Both the position numbers and the translations under genes were made by a program. From an uncultured Hyphomicrobiaceae bacterium (GTDB lineage Bacteria; Pseudomonadota; Alphaproteobacteria; Rhizobiales; CAMYJA01), in the NCBI GenBank assembly GCA_947258705.1, contig CAMYJA010000006.1, forward strand, positions 1-64,000: a stretch of 64,000 nucleotides of DNA, written 5' to 3'. This document shows positions 13,340 through 64,000 of this stretch, in pieces (positions within the stretch are counted from its first letter, which is position 1; each line of letters begins with the position of its first letter). The notes beneath the pieces were generated by a model, which did no database searches, was not told the DNA's origin, and saw only the letters and a program-made list of their open reading frames with translations.

Positions 13340-13773
13340 ATAAACAACTCACATACAAATTATCGGCACTGCCACTTTAACGCGTCGTTCCATGGCGCGA
13401 AGATTTATCGCACCACATGATAAATGCCACAGGGTTAACAAATTCCAAATTTTTCGGTCAGCAACATATGAAATCCGAATAACACATATAAATGTATTTT
13501 GACAAAAAAATGAGCCGCTTAAAAAAGCGGCTCAAGAGTTAACAGGGAGGCGTCAAACAGAGTGGCAGGTGCCACTCGGTCTCCAGATAACTGGATAAGT
13601 ATTAAGGTAAATCAACTTCCTTAATAATTCATTAATCGCCCAGATATTTGGTTTGCGAGTGTTTCAATGCGCTACAGCGCCAGCGCAATGAGGGGCGCAA
13701 TGCAGGCGTTATTCCGGAGAATTGGACGTGCGACAGACCGTCTGGAACCGGGCCGGAAATTAACTTATAGGAC
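13340..13773. other. AT-rich intergenic region without a gene
   Basis: No ORF with family support lies here. The part next to the rcdA-like gene should hold its promoter; the only clear element is the minus-strand terminator at 13504-13534. A TTAA-N7-TTAA at 13621-13635 lacks the final C of a CtrA box. Confidence 0.4.
13504..13534 (-). terminator. Intrinsic terminator (minus strand)
   Basis: TGAGCCGCTT/AAGCGGCTCA (13511-13520, 13525-13534) is a perfect 10-bp stem with a 4-nt loop. Read on the minus strand it is followed by seven Ts, so it should end the transcript of the DUF1192 gene about 240 nt upstream. Confidence 0.85.
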
Positions 13774-50118: not shown

Positions 50119-50229
50119 CCTTGACGACGCTATCAGCCATAACGGCGCTAAAATTATTGACATGATCATCCTGTAGCGTTTTGGATAATTATCAGGCTAT
50201 GTGTAGATTTCAGCGTGGGAGGATTTGTG

Positions 50230-51903
50230 ATGGGGATTGCATTGTTAGATTGGATGCTCGTTAATCTGCGGCAGGCGAAATTGTATGTTCTTCCGATAAG
50301 TCTAGCTCTCGCCCCGGCCATGTTCCTCGCCCCTCCCTTACCGGCCAATGCGCAGACCGCCGCCATGGCACAGGAACCCGTATGCAAGGGGCCGCGATCG
50401 ACGAAACTACGTCCCAAGATCGTCGGCGGATGGCGCGCGGACATCAAACATTGGCCGGGTCAGGTGTCTATTCGGGCGCATAATCCGCTAACCCAGCAAT
50501 CGTTTCATTTTTGCGGCGCTTCGGTGATTTCGCCGCATTGGGTTCTGACTGCGGCGCATTGTTTTTATGGATTCGTGCAGCGGGATACACAACGGAGATA
50601 TTTTATTTCCTTCGACAATGTTCCCTCCGCCAAGAAAATCGGTTTCGAGGGACCAGGCTATCTGGAAGCCGTCATGGGGACAGACGATCTCGACGATATC
50701 GGCCCGGAGAATATCCGCGAGATCGAAAAAATCGTCATTCATGGCGGTTATGAAGACGCACCGCGCACCGGGCATGATATCGCGCTGGTCAAGCTCGACC
50801 GGCCATGGACCGGGCCGATATCGCGGATCTCCGAAAAAGCAGATACGGATCCCGCCACACCGCCGGGGGCCGCCACCATGATTGCCGGATTCGGCGATCA
50901 GGAATGGCAGGCCGGCATTCGCAAATATGCCCGGCAGGGCGGTGGCGCCTTTGCCGCGGGTTCTCCCGCCATGCGCGAAGTCGATTTACCGACCATTCCG
51001 CTCAGACAGTGCCAGAAGCGATATGAGGGAGCTGCGATCGGTGCCGGCCAGATATGCGCGGGTTACGAGGAAGGTAAAAAAGACTCATGCCAGGGTGACA
51101 GCGGCGGGCCGCTCGTGGCTTTCGACCGGGAGGGGTGTCCTTATCAAATCGGCATTGTGAGCTGGGGGGCCAAATGCGCCTCGCCAAAGAGCTACGGGAT
51201 CTATACACGCGTTTCGCATTATATCGACTGGATCAAAAAATATGTGAACGAACCGCTTGTTCCCGCCGATGCACGTGTGATCGCGAAGAACATGGATGCC
51301 TCCTATCAGGTGCCCCTTGCCAAGGGGACCATTGGCGCACTCAAAGGGCTTTTCTCGGGCGCCGGCCATAGGCTGAACGTGGTGCTTGCGCGCAAAAACG
51401 GCGATGCGCCACGATCTTCGGGATTGGAAAAACTCAAACTTGGCGATAATTACGTTGTCCGCCTTTCGAGCAGCGGTTCGGGACGTGTAATTCTTCTGGA
51501 TATGGATGCACGGGGTACCGTGACACAGATTTTTCCCAATAAATTTGTCCGTGGCAGTAAGGTTGCAGCGCTTTCGTCCGGCGAAACCCTGACTATCCCG
51601 GGATCCAATTACGGATTTGACTGGTTCGAGGCGGTCGAGCCTCTTGGCAAAGGGCGCCTTGTTGCGATGCTGGTACCGGACGACTTTCCTTTAAGCGCGC
51701 ATATTGCATCGAAGGACCGGCTCGAGGCCGATCTCGGGCCTGTTGCAAGTCCAAGCAATTATGTACTCAATCTGATTGATCAGATTCATGGGCACATGGC
51801 GAAGTCATCCGGCGATCAGGTTAAACCTGACAAGGTCAATGCCGGATCCGCAAAAGGTGCGTGGGGCCTGAAGGTGATTGATTATGAGATCGTCCTGCGA
51901 TAG
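50230..51903 (+). CDS. Secreted trypsin-like serine protease with C-terminal DUF4384 domain
   Basis: A 557-residue exported protein. Start ATG 50230 has GGAGG at 7-nt spacing. After a signal peptide it shows a trypsin zymogen pattern: PKIVGGWR, so cleavage after Lys would expose IVGG. The S1 triad is His110 (LTAAHC), Asp183 (GHDIALVKL) and Ser291 (CQGDSGGP); Asp285 fits the trypsin specificity pocket (cleavage after Lys/Arg). Residues about 380-480 match DUF4384 (NYVVRLSSSGSGRVILLDMDA), a domain often found with kinases and export systems. S1 proteases of this animal-like type are uncommon in Gram-negatives. Confidence 0.88.
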   Translation: MGIALLDWMLVNLRQAKLYVLPISLALAPAMFLAPPLPANAQTAAMAQEPVCKGPRSTKLRPKIVGGWRADIKHWPGQVSIRAHNPLTQQSFHFCGASVISPHWVLTAAHCFYGFVQRDTQRRYFISFDNVPSAKKIGFEGPGYLEAVMGTDDLDDIGPENIREIEKIVIHGGYEDAPRTGHDIALVKLDRPWTGPISRISEKADTDPATPPGAATMIAGFGDQEWQAGIRKYARQGGGAFAAGSPAMREVDLPTIPLRQCQKRYEGAAIGAGQICAGYEEGKKDSCQGDSGGPLVAFDREGCPYQIGIVSWGAKCASPKSYGIYTRVSHYIDWIKKYVNEPLVPADARVIAKNMDASYQVPLAKGTIGALKGLFSGAGHRLNVVLARKNGDAPRSSGLEKLKLGDNYVVRLSSSGSGRVILLDMDARGTVTQIFPNKFVRGSKVAALSSGETLTIPGSNYGFDWFEAVEPLGKGRLVAMLVPDDFPLSAHIASKDRLEADLGPVASPSNYVLNLIDQIHGHMAKSSGDQVKPDKVNAGSAKGAWGLKVIDYEIVLR

Positions 51904-52361
51904 CTGGTGATTTCCCCTAGGAGCGCGTTATGAACCGGTCAACAGGTTGGCCAACGCTTCGACATGGGTTCTGGGAATGCACTGTCTGTTTTCCTGTTTG
52001 CACTTTCGGGACATCGGGAAGATTTTCTTTCAGCTGATCGCGACCGGCAGCCCCCAGCGCGATTTGTTGACGATTTTCGTCTTGGTCACAGGATCGAGCC
52101 AAACCCCTGGAGACTTGTTGCCCGCAGATTGTATGGCGCGGCGGTAAGGCCGGAGATGTTCCGGATCGAGAACCCGTTAAGGGTTTGTTTTCCATAAGGG
52201 ATGAATGGTCCCAATAGTGCTTTCTGGTGAGTCATCTTTAAGGGCTTCACATGCATGATCGCTGCAAATGATTGTTTCGGTGCGCTTTGCTGCGCGCGAA
52301 ACGAAAGGCGCTTGCGGAAGGGCGTCGAGCGAGATCCAGGAAATGGCCAGTTGGAGACGAC
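51904..52361. other. Intergenic region, no convincing gene
   Basis: Short ORFs overlap in several frames here (for example 51917-52195 minus) but none shows a domain, a good ribosome site or a signal peptide. A decayed gene is possible: short protein-like segments appear in two minus frames. The PL14-like gene's promoter must be near the right end. Confidence 0.3.
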
Positions 52362-53228
52362 ATGAAATTCAATGCACTGACAATCGGACTGAACGTAGTT
52401 GTCCTTGTCATCATTTCTGTAGGGGTGCTGACCCTCGTAAAAAGCGCGTTTACCACTGAGACACTTGCTCCATGCGGTCAGCGCTATGCGACTTTCGTTC
52501 GCTTCCCGGACAGCAATAGCATCGGGCAGGAACTGCGTGACGAGGATCTGTCGATATATCTTGACGACGAAGTTCAGGGTTTGTCGCGGTTTACGCGTGT
52601 TATCCGTCCCCAAAGCGGACATCCCTCCGTCGCTCTTGAAGTCCAAATGCCGCAAGGCTCGCTTAATCCACGGCTGCCGATTGCCCGGAAAGGCGGAATG
52701 GGATTCGCCTGGCGCCCGGCAATCCCTCAATCGGCCACCTCGGCCTGCCTGACATACAAGGTCTGGCTGCCGAAGGGATTCAAATTCGCCTCAGGTGGAA
52801 TCCTTCCCGGTCTTTTTGGCGGAGACGCCCCCAAGCCTGATGGTTATGAGCAAGTAGATGCGGGTTTTTCAAGCCATATTCTATGGGAGCGAAACGGGCA
52901 GGCCAGAGTACGCGCCTTCACATCCGACAATCCATCGAAAAACGGTTCTCAGGTCAGCCTGGGAAAATTGCCATTACCGACCGGTCGGTGGGTTGAACTG
53001 GCGCAGGAAATCAAGCTCAATACGCCGGGAAAAAAGGACGGGAAATTGCGGGTCTGGATAGATGGACAGCTTAAAGCAGAAGCGGTCGATTTGGAATTTC
53101 GAAAATCATCCAAGCATATTGTTGCGGGTGTTTTGGGTGACGTTTTTTATCGCGGCGACAAATTACAGATGGCCGCCCCCAAAGATACCTTCCTGAGGAT
53201 CACACCTTTTGAGCTAAACTGGAACTGA
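52362..53228 (+). CDS. Membrane-anchored PL14-like polysaccharide lyase fold protein
   Basis: The 288-residue protein, starting at ATG 52362 behind GGAG, has one N-terminal membrane helix (ALTIGLNVVVLVIISVGVLTLV) and a jelly-roll-like periplasmic domain. The segment YKVWLPKGFKFASGGILPGLFGG closely resembles the polysaccharide lyase family 14 pattern, and RVWIDGQLKAEAVDLEFR follows. It may bind or cleave an acidic polysaccharide; catalytic residues are not certain from sequence. The polysaccharide cluster lies 6 kb upstream, so a role in the same surface polymer is possible. Confidence 0.65.
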   Translation: MKFNALTIGLNVVVLVIISVGVLTLVKSAFTTETLAPCGQRYATFVRFPDSNSIGQELRDEDLSIYLDDEVQGLSRFTRVIRPQSGHPSVALEVQMPQGSLNPRLPIARKGGMGFAWRPAIPQSATSACLTYKVWLPKGFKFASGGILPGLFGGDAPKPDGYEQVDAGFSSHILWERNGQARVRAFTSDNPSKNGSQVSLGKLPLPTGRWVELAQEIKLNTPGKKDGKLRVWIDGQLKAEAVDLEFRKSSKHIVAGVLGDVFYRGDKLQMAAPKDTFLRITPFELNWN

Positions 53229-56941: not shown

Positions 56942-58261
56942 TCAGGGCCAGCGCGTCAGGCGCCAACCTGCCTTTATGGCGTCGTGTTCATTGCAGAACC
57001 AGCGTTCGCCCTTTGCCGGCTGAATTTTGATCCGGTCATATTGGTTTGACCAGGGAAGGTAATAGACGTGGCCTGCGCCAGATATATTGCCTTTCACCGG
57101 GCATCCCTCGGGGGCGCGCCGCTTCGCCAATTGCCAGCGCTGCTCACGGTAATTCCATGGCGTGTCGCTGGTTGCGCGCCAAATGCCAATTCTTTTTTTC
57201 CGCGCCTCGGTCTCTACCGCCTTGTAATTTCCCGGATCTCCGGGAGCCAACCAGGCAAGGCCCGCGCGCATCATATGGGCGCCGATATCCCGACCGGCTG
57301 ACCGGCACCGGCCGATGAGGCGGCCCAAATCGTCGATGCCTGTACGGGTGCATGTTACCTCGCGCTTCCCGATCAGCCTGCTCAATTGCCTTACGGCCTT
57401 TTCGCCGCATTTCCACTGGGACCGTCCACCGGGTCGGCGCTTGCATCTTTGCGCCGGCTCGGGAGCGTCAATTCCATGAAGCCGAATGTAAGTATCGTTA
57501 ATTTTAATGGTATCTGCGTCGATGACGCGAGCGGTCCCCGCAATGACATTGTTCTTTGGCAATTGCGAAAAAAGACCGAGTGAGAAGATGCTCACAGCTC
57601 CTGCGAACACGATAAACGTGAGCGCGCCATAGGCAATAGTCTGCCGCTGATGAACGACTTGCCGTGTAATGACGGCAGTCGCGCGCTGACTGACACTGCC
57701 CATGTCGGACATGGATGCATACAGATTTCTCAGTTGTATGCCGCTCCAGTTGAAACCGGCGATCGCACCTGCCAGCAAATTGCGACCGCTCCAATAAGCG
57801 GCATCGGTGCTTCCCTTGAGAGTTTTCGCACCGATCATTCGACCAACCCTGCCCAATATGCGTGATAAGGAAATTGCACCGCCGGCAATATGTGCGACAT
57901 ACCGTTTCGAAACTCCGGCGATCCTGACGGCCAGGCTGGCCGTCCGGTTGCCTGATCGCCGGGCGAATCCTGCCAGCCAAATCAAGAGCGACTGAAATCC
58001 TTGAGACAGTTTTGATAGATAGACGGGGCCTTTGATTGCGATCCACCGCGATATCGAAATTCTCATCCGGCTGAGTTTGAGCAGGAAATATTCGAAGGAT
58101 GCCCTTAACTTCAGGACCAGGAGCGATGTGCATGTCCGGCAAAAATAGCCCAGCGCCGATAATTGCTCCTCGCGCTCTTCGCGTCGCATTCTGACTTGGG
58201 TTTTCTCATGTGTGATCCACTCAAAACCCTCTTCCTTTTTCCGCCAGGGTAAAGTGAGCAT
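56942..58261 (-). CDS. Membrane-anchored nuclease, SNase (thermonuclease) fold
   Basis: The 439-residue protein has a SNase domain at about 235-345: IDADTIKINDTYIRLHGIDAPE keeps the calcium Asp pair, Arg and Glu of staphylococcal nuclease, and DDLGRLIGRC supplies the second Arg, so catalysis is plausible. A membrane helix (AYGALTFIVFAGAVSIFSLGLF) precedes it, putting the domain in the periplasm. The N-terminal ~200 residues are basic and amphipathic with no known domain. A Cys/His-containing C-terminal tail (PEGCPVKGNISGAGHVYYLPW) is a common extension of exported thermonucleases. Confidence 0.85.
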   Translation of the reverse strand: MLTLPWRKKEEGFEWITHEKTQVRMRREEREEQLSALGYFCRTCTSLLVLKLRASFEYFLLKLSRMRISISRWIAIKGPVYLSKLSQGFQSLLIWLAGFARRSGNRTASLAVRIAGVSKRYVAHIAGGAISLSRILGRVGRMIGAKTLKGSTDAAYWSGRNLLAGAIAGFNWSGIQLRNLYASMSDMGSVSQRATAVITRQVVHQRQTIAYGALTFIVFAGAVSIFSLGLFSQLPKNNVIAGTARVIDADTIKINDTYIRLHGIDAPEPAQRCKRRPGGRSQWKCGEKAVRQLSRLIGKREVTCTRTGIDDLGRLIGRCRSAGRDIGAHMMRAGLAWLAPGDPGNYKAVETEARKKRIGIWRATSDTPWNYREQRWQLAKRRAPEGCPVKGNISGAGHVYYLPWSNQYDRIKIQPAKGERWFCNEHDAIKAGWRLTRWP

Positions 58262-58747: not shown

Positions 58748-61354
58748 TCAGCGTGCAGCTATCTCGCGTCGCGAGGAGGGGCGTATGGTCCAGACGCGTA
58801 TTGTCCCGTCATCGCTGCCGGATACGATTTTGCGGCCATCGGCGGAGAAGCCCACAGTGCGTACTGAGCCCTGGTGTCCCTTAAACGTTCGCAGCAGGCG
58901 TTTGCGGCGGACGTTCCATAGGCGGACCGTCCCATCTTCTCCAGCACTGGCAAGCAATTTCCCATCGGGGGAGAACCTGGCCATGAAAATTCGGCCCTTG
59001 TGTCCGCGCAAGGTTCTCCGTGTACGGGAAGATTTTGCCGACCAAAGCTTCAGGCGTCCGTCCAGTCCGGCGGAAACCAGATAGCGCCCATCCGGTGAGA
59101 AGTGAATCGAACTTACCGCCCGCTTATGGCCGCGGAATTTTCGGATGAGTTTTTTTCTGGTGACGTCCCAAAGCTTGATCACGCGATCCGCACCAGCGGT
59201 GGCGACCAGATTTTGGGATTTTATCACCGCAATGGCGTAAACGGCGCCCGCCCCGCTTTCAAGGGTCAAATATGGAGTGCGCTCCCCGTTGCGCCACAAT
59301 TTTACCGCGCCGTCCTGACCGGCTGAGAAGAATTCCGTATCCTTTCGGCCAAAGGCAACCGAGTGCACAAGGCCATTATGGTGCCGGATCTTTTGTATCG
59401 TTTTGCCTGTCCGCCGGTTTTTCAAGCTGATCACACCATTAGCCCCCGATGCGAGCAGCATGTCGTCGCGAATATCGAGGGCGGTAATCGAGCTTTGCTC
59501 TTTGGAGAGTATCCGGTCCTGCCTTCCGCTTTTGAGGTTCCAGAGGCGGAGCCGCTCATCAATACCACCCGAGATGATATACTTTCCATCCGGGGTGAAA
59601 ATAGCGGTCTGCACCATGCCGTCATGGCCGCGCAGGATCTGCACATTTCCGACCGGCACTGCGGGGGTTGAAACAAGTGCGCGCCGCAGCTTTCCGACGT
59701 TGGCGATCGTGCTGGCATAGGATTTTTCGATATTGTCCTTCAGCACCGGCCAGTCGCGCTTGAAATTTCCAAGCGCTGCCTCGGCCTTGTTCACGTAACG
59801 GGCGGGGATCCATTCCTGCCTGACCGCCGCGCCGGTAAGCATGATTGCGATGATGGAGAACGACATGATTGCGTGAGTGCGGAAAAAATTCAGCACCGGC
59901 ATTCCTTTTGACCCACCGTTTCCGGCCATACGCGCGGCCCCTCCCAACAATGCCTTCAAGAGCAGGTAAACCGGGGAGACTATGGCCGCCATGATATGTG
60001 TTAAAAGACTGCCCGCGCTCGTCGCTGCACGGTATATCCGTGTCATCGGGATGTCGATTTCCGGCGTTATTGCAGCGGCGCCATTGCCGTCCGCAGCTTT
60101 GTGCATGCCAAAAAAACCAAGCCCGTCTTTTGACTTTTTGCTCTCGGCGAATAAATTCTGTGCGGCCATATCTCCCGATGGGCGGACCTCTGCCAGCCTG
60201 TTGGCAAGGCTGCCGGCCGCAGCGGCATCACTGGCATTCGGTGCGGAGGGAATGCGATCGGTATCAGACTGGGGGGGCGCGGAGCCGGGTCGTTGTTTGT
60301 TAATCCTGCGAAAGCGAAGAAAGTCAGGCACGTGCGGCATGGTGGCTGCTGCCACCGTCGGACCCAGACCATGGGTGAGTGCGCGCGTCGGGCGGTACGT
60401 CAATTGCTTATCCGCTTGAAGCATCGGTGGATTGGAGCCGATCTTTACCGTCTCGCCTGTCTCGGCAGCGGCGATCCCGTCCGGTTCGATCAATGCATCG
60501 CGCCATTCGCCGATATGGGAAGGTCTTCGCTCCGGCTTGACTTCCAATGCCCGATCGATAGCCCTCAAAAAACTCTCGCGATAACGGCCCTTCGCCGTTT
60601 CAAAAGCGCTTTTGTGGTTGTCGTCGGTCACGCGGCCAGGTGCATCGAGGGGCCGTTTTCTGGTTATTGCGTAATAGAGCGTTGCTCCCAGGGAATATAT
60701 ATCCGTCCAGGGGCCCTGCTGTTTGGCATTTACGGCATATTGCTCAAACGGCGAATAACCGGGCTTGACGATTGCGCTCACGGTTTTGGAATGCTGGGCG
60801 ACATCGCCCCTGGCAGAACCAAAGTCGATCAAAACCGGCGCGCCGTCTTCACGGATCAGAATATTATCCGGCGCAATGTCACGATGGAGTAAATCCGCGT
60901 CATGGATGGTTTCCAGCGCCGGAAGTATTTTTTCGAGCAGTGCGTCGAGTTCAGACTGCAATGGCGCCCGGCCGAGCATGTCTAGCCAGTTCTTCAGACT
61001 CTGACCATTTTCATGATGCAGAACCATATAGGCGGTATTGTTCTCGCGGAAATAGCGATAAACGCGAACAATATTGTCATGATTGAATTTGGCTAGAATC
61101 CGGGCTTCGTGGATAAAGCGATCGAGACCCCAGACATAACGGTCCTTACCCTTTTTGCCCTTGGACCGTACCAGCATACTCCCTTCGCGAACCGCCAGGC
61201 CGGTCGGGAAATATTCCTTAATGGCGACCATGCGCTTCAAGGTTTCTTCTTCGGCCAGATAGGTAATACCGAATCCACCCGAGCCGAGTACATTCTTGAT
61301 GCGGTATTCCCCAGCTAGCCGGGTCTCCGGAGCTAATGCCTGCGGATTGTCCAT
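58748..61354 (-). CDS. Membrane Ser/Thr protein kinase with C-terminal WD40 propeller
   Basis: The 868-residue protein has an intact Hanks-type kinase domain (about 15-290): Gly-loop GSGGFG, Lys46 in VAIK, catalytic Asp159 in HRDIAPDN and DFG at 177-179. A linker follows, then a membrane helix (about 493-511, MSFSIIAIMLTGAAV) and seven WD40 repeats (about 572-860; e.g. GHKRAVSSIHFSPDGRYLVS). Seven repeats fill a complete beta-propeller, which should face the periplasm and could bind a ligand or partner. It is divergent from the FHA and PP2C genes, its likely readers and erasers. The target protein is not known. AGGGG precedes the ATG. Confidence 0.9.
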   Translation of the reverse strand: MDNPQALAPETRLAGEYRIKNVLGSGGFGITYLAEEETLKRMVAIKEYFPTGLAVREGSMLVRSKGKKGKDRYVWGLDRFIHEARILAKFNHDNIVRVYRYFRENNTAYMVLHHENGQSLKNWLDMLGRAPLQSELDALLEKILPALETIHDADLLHRDIAPDNILIREDGAPVLIDFGSARGDVAQHSKTVSAIVKPGYSPFEQYAVNAKQQGPWTDIYSLGATLYYAITRKRPLDAPGRVTDDNHKSAFETAKGRYRESFLRAIDRALEVKPERRPSHIGEWRDALIEPDGIAAAETGETVKIGSNPPMLQADKQLTYRPTRALTHGLGPTVAAATMPHVPDFLRFRRINKQRPGSAPPQSDTDRIPSAPNASDAAAAGSLANRLAEVRPSGDMAAQNLFAESKKSKDGLGFFGMHKAADGNGAAAITPEIDIPMTRIYRAATSAGSLLTHIMAAIVSPVYLLLKALLGGAARMAGNGGSKGMPVLNFFRTHAIMSFSIIAIMLTGAAVRQEWIPARYVNKAEAALGNFKRDWPVLKDNIEKSYASTIANVGKLRRALVSTPAVPVGNVQILRGHDGMVQTAIFTPDGKYIISGGIDERLRLWNLKSGRQDRILSKEQSSITALDIRDDMLLASGANGVISLKNRRTGKTIQKIRHHNGLVHSVAFGRKDTEFFSAGQDGAVKLWRNGERTPYLTLESGAGAVYAIAVIKSQNLVATAGADRVIKLWDVTRKKLIRKFRGHKRAVSSIHFSPDGRYLVSAGLDGRLKLWSAKSSRTRRTLRGHKGRIFMARFSPDGKLLASAGEDGTVRLWNVRRKRLLRTFKGHQGSVRTVGFSADGRKIVSGSDDGTIRVWTIRPSSRREIAAR

Positions 61355-61731
61355 TTTCCCCTATACGTCTCTGAACAGAGACCAGCCTCGTTTTTATTTC
61401 TCCGCCCGCCATAACCAAAGGATGAGGCAATAATTTGTTGGCAGGGTCGGCTGGGGAAAAAAATCATCCGTAGTGACGTCTTTGCAACAGGTCTCCGCCT
61501 ACCCGGCTCCTGCCCGAGAATAAACACAGTTCCAGCGTAATGCGTGATTTGTCACATGCATGATGGAGGTCGATAGGTCGTTTGAACACTCTCGATACAT
61601 TTCTTTTTTCCGAGAATGGTTCATTCCTGTCTTTGCGCTTATTCGAGGCACGTTTGGCGCGGTCGACCCCAGAAGCTGACGGCCCCCGAAACTTCAATTT
61701 TTTCAATTTCGACTGATATCAGGAGAACAGT
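61355..61731. other. Divergent intergenic region, no gene seen
   Basis: Holds the divergent promoters of the kinase and the FHA genes. I see no clear operator or repeat. Confidence 0.35.
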
Positions 61732-62556
61732 ATGGGGCAGAGCAACTTACCGAACACTACTGAACCAAATAGTGGAACCACCAGCGGGAATGCAGGTGGA
61801 CGCAGCCGCGCACGATCGTCTCTTCGAACGGCTTTAAACGCTCTTATGATGTCGGATGAGCGTAAAAGGGACGGCAAGCCCGGTGAAATTACACTTGAAA
61901 TGGAAAAGGATCCTCACAGCCTGAGCCGGTCCCAATCCAGAAAGAAATCCGATCGTTCAGAGAGAACCCAAGACAGAGAGGGAGTGCGTAATATGAGTAT
62001 GACAGCGAATAATGAAATCAATCATTCGGGCAATAGCGAGCCGATTAGAATTGGTCGACGCGGTGGACATGGTTCGAAAGACGCTCCGATCACGATACAG
62101 GCCGAGCCGATAAATGACGGTTCTGACGCATCGGCCAAGAAAACGCAGATGGTCCGAGGTGAACAGTCAATAAAGCGATCGGGTTTTCATCAGGAACCGG
62201 TTGTCGGATGGCTGGTTGTCATTGGTGGTCCGGGGCTCGGCGCCTATCGTCCAGTCTTTGAAGGCAACAATACGCTTGGCCGCTCCGAGTCGCAGCGCAT
62301 TCCCATCAATTTCGGTGACGAATCCATCTCGGGCGAGGAGCAGGTCTATATCCGCTATGATTCGTCCGACAAGAATTTCCTGCTTGTTCCCAATTTGACC
62401 AAGACCAATGTGGTTGCCGTCAATGACGAAAAACCGACATCGGCTGTACCTCTGAATTCGATGGATGTTATAACTGTCGGACGGACCCAGCTGGTTTTCG
62501 TGCCATTTTGCGGCGTGGAGTTCGACTGGTCCGAATTAAAGAAAATTCAGAAATAG
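61732..62556 (+). CDS. FHA-domain protein with long basic N-terminus
   Basis: The 274-residue protein has a Ser/Arg/Lys-rich, probably disordered N-terminal ~145 residues and a C-terminal FHA domain (about 160-260): NNTLGRSESQRIPINFGDES keeps the phosphothreonine-binding Arg, SISGEE keeps Ser but has Glu for the usual His, and LTKTNVVAVN keeps Asn. It could bind phosphothreonine with altered specificity. AGGAG precedes the ATG. It is followed 42 nt later by the PP2C gene. The Ser-rich N-terminus is a candidate substrate of the divergent kinase. Confidence 0.82.
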   Translation: MGQSNLPNTTEPNSGTTSGNAGGRSRARSSLRTALNALMMSDERKRDGKPGEITLEMEKDPHSLSRSQSRKKSDRSERTQDREGVRNMSMTANNEINHSGNSEPIRIGRRGGHGSKDAPITIQAEPINDGSDASAKKTQMVRGEQSIKRSGFHQEPVVGWLVVIGGPGLGAYRPVFEGNNTLGRSESQRIPINFGDESISGEEQVYIRYDSSDKNFLLVPNLTKTNVVAVNDEKPTSAVPLNSMDVITVGRTQLVFVPFCGVEFDWSELKKIQK

Positions 62557-62598
62557 AGATTGGGCTTCACTGACCGGTCAAATAGTGAGAGTTCATCA

Positions 62599-63429
62599 AT
62601 GACCGCTCAATTCGAGCATGCTTACGGGGCTATTGTCGGGTCCCGGGCCACACAGGAAGATGCCTGCGCGTTCGCACTGCTGGACGGGCAGGCCTCCCGG
62701 CTTACGGGCACGACCATAGCTGTTCCGGATTCTTCAAGCGCCACGATCGAGCTTGCCGGATCGCAGGAGCTGCTGGCCGTTCTGGCCGACGGAATGGGCG
62801 GCCATGTCGGCGGAGCGAAAGCGTCGAACCTTGCCTGCCAGAAATTTATCGATGACTATTCCGACCGCACGGGTTCGGTTTCCGAACGGCTCATGGAGGC
62901 GCTGGTCCAGTCCAATAGCGCGATCGACGAAGAAGTATGCCTCGATCTCTCCCTTAGCGGCATGGGCTGCACGCTTATCGGCGCCATTTTTAGAGAAGGC
63001 GGCCTTCGCTGGGTAAGCGTCGGAGATTCGCTTCTTTATGTTTGCCGAAAGGGCGTCCTTTATCATCTCAACGAAGACCATTCCATGGCGCCGGTGCTCG
63101 AGCAACTCGTTGAGGCGGGTGAGATGAGCGCTTATGAGGCGAAATGCCACCCCTCGCGCAATGCGCTGCGCTCGGCTGTCACCGGGAATACGATTGAGAT
63201 TATCGACCTCAATGATGAAGTTTTCGAACTCGAGAATGACGATACTATTGTCATCGCCAGCGATGGTCTCCTCTCAATTTCCGAAAATAAAATTACCGAA
63301 ATCATCGCGGCCAGCAAGGCGGGGGGAGCAGAGAAAATTGTGTCCGAATTACTCGCGGCGGTCGAGGCTGCCGGTGATCCCTATCAGGACAATACGACCA
63401 TCATGACCGTTAAGCCCATTCTGGATTGA
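62599..63429 (+). CDS. PP2C-family Ser/Thr protein phosphatase
   Basis: With the ATG at 62599 the product has 276 residues and the full set of PP2C motifs: GSRATQEDA, LLAVLADGMGGHVGG, SVGDSLLYV, VIASDGLLS and DNTTIM. The metal-coordinating Asp residues are present, so it should be an active Mn/Mg-dependent phosphatase. It has no membrane segment. Located after the FHA gene and opposite the kinase, it most likely reverses the kinase's phosphorylation. Confidence 0.92.
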   Translation: MTAQFEHAYGAIVGSRATQEDACAFALLDGQASRLTGTTIAVPDSSSATIELAGSQELLAVLADGMGGHVGGAKASNLACQKFIDDYSDRTGSVSERLMEALVQSNSAIDEEVCLDLSLSGMGCTLIGAIFREGGLRWVSVGDSLLYVCRKGVLYHLNEDHSMAPVLEQLVEAGEMSAYEAKCHPSRNALRSAVTGNTIEIIDLNDEVFELENDDTIVIASDGLLSISENKITEIIAASKAGGAEKIVSELLAAVEAAGDPYQDNTTIMTVKPILD

Positions 63430-63563
63430 GTGCCCCACAACTGAACATTCAATCTGTCTACACAGGCTGGTGATGATTGAAAAGTCCGGCCGGAACCCGA
63501 TCTCGATTGTCCCGCCGCAAGCAAGCGATTGAGCGTGCCGCTTTATTTCAAACGATTAATTTC

Positions 63564-64000
63564 TCAAGACCGGAACGCACGACCGATAGCTTCGTTAAAC
63601 GGCTTCAATAACATTCTGAGGGGGGTGCGCGCTCTGGTGCGGATGTAGACTTCGGCGGGCATGCCGGGGAGTAGCGTGACCGTGGACCCGAGGGATTCAC
63701 GCCCATCTTTGGTCAACTCGATCTCGACCGAGAAAAATGGAGCGCCGGTCGACTGGTCTGAAAATCCGGCTGCGGATACTTTTCGCACCACTGCCGGCAG
63801 TGTCGGCACTTTATCGCTGTCGAAGGCCGTCAGATTGACGGATGCTGCCTGGCCTATTTTCACCTGATCCACATCGGTCGGCTTTATTCTCGCCTCGACT
63901 ATGATGAGGTCCCTCTCGGGGATGATACGCAGAATGGGTTTGGCAGGTGATATGACCCCCCCCACAGTGTGAATGGAAAGCGCGTGAACCGTACCCGATT
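63564..64000 (-). CDS. Type I secretion HlyD-family adaptor, C-terminal part (runs off window)
   Basis: The minus-strand frame is open through the right edge, so the ORF track start (GTG 63965) is artificial. The visible ~145 residues match the end of HlyD/PrtE-type periplasmic adaptors: HTVGGVISPAKPILRI, LIIVEARIKPTDVDQV, GQAASVNLTAFD, LLPGMPAEVYIRT and LLKPFNEAIGRAFRS. The adaptor bridges an ABC exporter and TolC for secretion of an unfolded protein. The exporter and substrate must lie beyond the window, if they are linked. Confidence 0.93.
   Translation of the reverse strand, partial: SGTVHALSIHTVGGVISPAKPILRIIPERDLIIVEARIKPTDVDQVKIGQAASVNLTAFDSDKVPTLPAVVRKVSAAGFSDQSTGAPFFSVEIELTKDGRESLGSTVTLLPGMPAEVYIRTRARTPLRMLLKPFNEAIGRAFRS

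Follow-up and report, generated by a model that had tools for sequence, protein, structure and literature searches.

Three neighboring ORFs, encoding a WD40 transmembrane Ser/Thr kinase, an FHA protein and a PP2C phosphatase, form a self-contained module that is conserved as a unit within one order, the Hyphomicrobiales. We consider it somewhat better than an even chance, with a probability of about 0.55, that this trio acts as an autonomous threonine-phosphorylation switch with the architecture of the PpkA-Fha-PppA pathway but no attachment to a type VI secretion system (T6SS), in which the kinase would act on Thr138 of the FHA protein, the FHA domain would capture the modified residue and the phosphatase would reset the system. 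The trio would thus represent a circuit of a known kind in a T6SS-free form, with a putative WD40 sensor and a GarA-like candidate switch. The papers searched contained no description of such a trio in Rhizobiales or Hyphomicrobium. The existence of a conserved version of PpkA-Fha-PppA in the absence of a T6SS points to the kinase-reader-eraser unit being a portable module, and the trio, with a single kinase, FHA protein and phosphatase and one invariant candidate phosphosite, offers a compact system for probing the signals and targets of bacterial WD40 receptor kinases.

Organization and conservation of the trio

The window, i.e., the whole stretch of DNA that was analyzed, covers the first 64,000 bases of a contig of 84,790 bases and belongs to a genome of 2.77 Mb whose completeness is rated 100%. 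The kinase gene (868 aa; 58748-61354, minus strand) is separated by a divergent intergenic region (61355-61731) from the FHA gene (274 aa; 61732-62556, plus strand), which is followed after 3 bp by the gene of the PP2C-type phosphatase (289 aa; 62560-63429, plus strand; Pfam PP2C_2). All three ORFs lie where a first-pass annotation of this DNA had placed them. A promoter scan of the kinase-FHA intergenic region gave nothing above shuffled sequences. Elsewhere in the window, the alphaproteobacterial sRNA BjrC1505 (RF02356, 83.9 bits; 13505-13618, minus strand) represents the only Rfam match at the gathering level.

A contig scan yielded 170 confirmed relatives, 80 of which were retained, with labels that are mostly Hyphomicrobium, Filomicrobium and Hyphomicrobiaceae. 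The FHA gene is present in all 80 loci, the PP2C gene in 78 and the kinase gene in 64, and the kinase gene is divergent from the FHA gene in every locus that has both (64/64). In the two loci devoid of a PP2C gene the sequence stops just past the FHA gene, and many of the kinase-less loci stop before the position of the kinase; for the five kinase-less loci with sufficient room, an orthologous WD40 kinase is encoded elsewhere in four of the five genomes. Close orthologs of the FHA protein (E better than 1e-45, hand count) are found in 26 of 298 Hyphomicrobiales genomes.

The PpkA-Fha-PppA threonine phosphorylation pathway regulates type VI secretion (PMC3953482, PMC6082577), and the trio shares with it a transmembrane Ser/Thr kinase, an FHA reader and a PP2C eraser. 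The first-pass annotation had already read these genes as a phospho-switch of receptor-type kinase, reader and eraser that resembles the T6SS control set, a reading supported by the conservation of the unit and by the PpkA-like kinase domain. In contrast to the known pathway, however, the trio is found without a T6SS, since TssK, the sole T6SS marker used, is missing from this genome and 12 further ones, 10 of which hold the FHA ortholog. The lack of any visible T6SS gene, reported initially for the window, extends to TssK genome-wide, and the possibility raised at the time that the trio might control a T6SS located just outside the window is contradicted by the same absence. The trio also differs from the T6SS pathway by the WD40 propeller that is predicted to form the extracytoplasmic part of its kinase, by a phosphatase that is nearer to PstP than to PppA, and by the C-terminal location of its FHA domain, behind a threonine motif.

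The kinase and the phosphatase

Among kinases of solved structure, the closest to the kinase domain of the trio (residues 14-287; 60494-61315, minus strand) is PpkA of the T6SS pathway, with a score of 215.7 bits when the domain is compared on its own, followed by PknA with 88.3 bits. The catalytic Lys, the HRD motif, the Asn and the DFG motif are invariant in 64-65 homologs. A transmembrane segment is predicted at residues 493-511 (59822-59878, minus strand), which is hydrophobic in 51 alignment rows and has positive-inside flanks. One such segment between kinase and propeller is predicted in 50 of 59 near-full-length homologs, and the 15 alignment rows inspected all carry positive charge on its kinase side. 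The kinase and WD40 assignments of the first-pass annotation are confirmed by Pfam, and the propeller (58769-59640, minus strand, approximate boundaries) has seven blades as counted by eye in the sequence. WD40 repeats, also read by eye, are present in all five complete trio-adjacent orthologs among seven kinases inspected; the kinase of locus L021 has them as well, and the distant kinase of L029 does not.

The propeller is predicted to be outside the inner membrane and the kinase domain inside. The kinase of this species harbors a second, weaker hydrophobic stretch (residues 448-466) that is absent from its relatives, so that the kinase-inside, propeller-outside topology is likely but not certain here. 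In the initial description of a membrane-spanning protein with an external propeller, the membrane-spanning part agrees with the single predicted segment of conserved position and with the positive charge of the kinase side, and the outside location of the propeller is a prediction.

A kinase joined to a WD40 propeller is also found in PkwA and in other WD40 Ser/Thr kinases (PMC6113231, PMC5587647), and the WD40 part of PkwA was found by sequence in the comparison with the propeller of the trio kinase. The trio differs from these kinases by its PpkA-type kinase domain and by having dedicated partners, an FHA protein and a PP2C phosphatase, with a constant arrangement of the genes. Two other ideas about the kinase were rejected. 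A TRKIE motif in its linker was considered as a docking site and dropped, being present in only a minority of 65 kinases, and the models of anti-phage defense kinases match it solely via the generic kinase or WD40 parts. The only other kinase of the genome above the Pfam cut-off is a fused PP2C-kinase protein (L002, contig C41, 3147-4943), whose gene adjoins that of a NarK-like transporter.

As for the phosphatase, its metal-ligand Asp residues are all present, in line with the full set of ligands announced by the first-pass annotation, and they are invariant in its relatives. The protein scores 130 bits against the Stp1 family model, which is under the equivalog cut-off of that model, and it matches PstP better than PppA.

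The FHA protein and the proposed switch

A Pfam search of the FHA protein gave no FHA match. A profile built from its relatives matches the solved FHA domains of CT664, FhaA, OdhI and GarA, and a fold model constructed with 56 sequences (mean pLDDT 84) matches the fold of OdhI (E of 8.3e-8), GarA (about 2e-7), FhaA and DgcB of Bdellovibrio. The domain spans approximately residues 157-257 (62200-62502, plus strand). The phosphothreonine-binding Arg and Ser, which are features of membership in the T6SS pathway, are kept, as Arg184 in 79 and Ser200 in all of the 80 aligned sequences; the other residues of the site, Lys224 (80/80) and Asn226 (79/80), are similarly conserved.

The region ahead of the FHA domain is variable apart from a [RK]TQ[LM]VRG motif, which ends about 14 residues ahead of the first strand of the model and reads KTQMVRG here (62140-62160, plus strand). 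Its threonine, Thr138, is a candidate phosphosite, and both it and the following Arg142 are found in 80/80 aligned sequences; position +2 is Leu or Met and position +3 is Val. A search for RTQLVRG in other proteins returned two extra matches, which fall in open frames 42 codons and 14 codons long and were judged to be due to chance.

In GarA and OdhI of Actinobacteria and in DgcB of Bdellovibrio, the FHA domain binds a Thr motif in the N-terminal region of the same protein, with hydrophobic residues at +2/+3 (PMC6733907). The trio protein has in common with them an FHA fold located behind a conserved Thr motif with hydrophobic +2/+3 positions. It differs from them in that its TQLVRG motif has a Gln at +1, positions +1 and -2 being different, in that the His of the FHA site is a Gln, and in that there is no sign of a 2-oxoglutarate dehydrogenase or GGDEF partner; sequence identity is about 25%.

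On these grounds, the following sequence of events may be envisioned. The kinase would reside in the inner membrane, its PpkA-like catalytic domain facing inward and its propeller outward, and the binding of a ligand or an envelope protein to the propeller would alter kinase activity. The kinase would then phosphorylate Thr138 in the motif of the FHA protein, and the FHA domain, which retains Arg184, Ser200 and Asn226, might bind the phosphorylated residue in cis or in trans. Fold and motif suggest that this capture would change which partner is held by the FHA protein, as in GarA, OdhI and DgcB, and the PP2C phosphatase would presumably reset the switch.

Candidate effectors and alternative readings

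The gene located 486 bp downstream of the kinase gene (56942-58261, minus strand) codes for a membrane-anchored SNase, identified by an SNase match, with a C-terminal sunset domain that scores above the cut-off and one predicted transmembrane segment at residues 213-231. In 28 of the 80 loci, an SNase homolog is encoded downstream of the kinase gene, co-directional with it and at most 4 kb away; eight of these loci have a gap of 105-212 bp. The N-terminal part of the protein, which is predicted to be cytosolic, contains the motif FEWITHEKTQVRMRR (58181-58225, minus strand). It takes the form FEW/FDW-x-x-x-VRTT in 28/28 linked relatives and reads FEWITHEKTQ here. Searched for at the DNA level, the motif gave a single match in each of 20 of 27 genomes, and a reversed-pattern control gave no match. 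In family f2, 8 of 14 genomes have the motif no more than 10 kb away from the FHA gene, the distances being measured by hand.

These data make the SNase the best candidate effector of the trio, though only a candidate. It might be the dedicated output, the Thr of its tail (FEW...[RK]T[TQ]) being phosphorylated by the kinase and bound by the FHA protein, such that an envelope signal would control a nuclease domain outside the inner membrane. We regard this as a tentative proposal with limited odds. The recurrent gene position and the distribution of the motif argue for it, and the basic-Thr-x-hydrophobic pattern of the tail resembles the motif of the FHA protein itself. However, the resemblance covers only a short stretch, and many of the tails lack a hydrophobic residue at +3. 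Moreover, trio and motif are both present in all 14 family-f2 genomes, so that their co-occurrence may reflect ancestry alone and was uninformative over the 298 genomes, and other families hold the trio without such a motif pattern. Equally doubtful, in our view, is the broader picture in which a pathway of the PpkA type has become independent of type VI secretion and its WD40 envelope sensor would control, via a GarA-like FHA switch, a membrane-anchored extracytoplasmic nuclease through its dedicated Thr tail (FEW-[RK]T).

A second reading concerns the FHA domain itself, which might no longer read phosphothreonine and instead serve as a constitutive scaffold, the kinase and the phosphatase acting on other proteins. 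The first-pass annotation had noted that the usual His of the FHA site is altered, which is correct, and that Glu replaces it, which is not, as the residue is Gln204 (62341-62343, plus strand) rather than Glu203. In distant relatives, which read IS-R-E-G-H or IS-R-I-D-H, the His comes four residues after the Ser, and its gapless equivalent here is hence Gln204; the profile alignment to FhaA likewise places the His opposite Gln204, with a gap at the Glu. The canonical His is thus missing, and the Gln is kept in 79/80 sequences. In addition, the NG pair of the site is replaced by NV or NI, and a separate alignment shows three relatives without the binding Arg, which is replaced by Trp in L025 and by Ser in L026 and L027. 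All three changes count against the FHA switch. A FVPFCGxxFDW patch behind the FHA core (residues 256-267; about 62497-62532) is nearly invariant in the 80 sequences, a conservation that is not accounted for by the phosphopeptide site and would fit a scaffold. The near-complete retention of Arg184, Ser200 and Asn226 and the invariance of the Thr motif nevertheless make the scaffold reading improbable, and they favor the phosphorylation switch centered on Thr138.

The third reading, put forward by the first-pass annotation, sees the trio as a control device for the type I exporter next to it or for exported enzymes. There is indeed a HlyD-type adaptor gene beside the PP2C gene (63564-64934, of which 63564-64000 are in the window, minus strand; TIGR01843, 361 bits), and extending the sequence rightward, as the annotation had advised, revealed the rest of a PrtD-type type I secretion system (T1SS), i.e., complete HlyD and ABC genes that form a two-gene exporter reaching contig position 66777, with ExbB, ExbD and TonB genes behind it. 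This genome has one T1SS ABC protein above the PrtD cut-off, and a distance of about 15 kb separates the trio from a PrtD-type T1SS in one genome. However, the exporter genes are convergent with the PP2C gene and not operon-like, and the linkage is not conserved: across the 80 trio loci there is a single HlyD match, 9.2 kb to the left, on the other side of the trio, and none beside the PP2C gene, and just six ABC matches, which are weak, with about 27% identity. The DUF4384 protease mentioned as a neighbor does exist, as a predicted exported protein with a trypsin domain and DUF4384 (50215-51903, plus strand), and none of the 80 loci yielded a match to it at the thresholds applied.

A T1SS recurs in another setting, next to the gene of a polysaccharide lyase 14-like protein with an N-terminal anchor (52272-53228, plus strand; Pfam PL14, 106 bits; transmembrane segment at residues 38-56). 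The lyase gene is linked to the trio in 10 of the 80 loci. Traced into 33 further stretches and L154, it adjoins the SNase gene in most of these 33 loci, and a T1SS directly precedes it in 11 loci, including three where the kinase is present as well. In the exporter tree, ten lyase-linked T1SSs form one clade (100/100) apart from the local exporter, which indicates that the two T1SS proximities are separate events. The linkage survey and the ABC tree thus speak against a T1SS as the output of the trio and make control of the exporter or of exported enzymes very unlikely; on present evidence, type I secretion is not its effector. A lack of conserved linkage to type I secretion genes is also the outcome that the first-pass annotation had itself named as refuting its proposal.

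The lyase and SNase genes, joined in 11 loci by a distinct T1SS clade, constitute a separate conserved neighborhood. In L154, a frame with RTX-like GTRGNDVIRG repeats (1-1275) is found beside the lyase-linked T1SS and might encode a substrate of that exporter.
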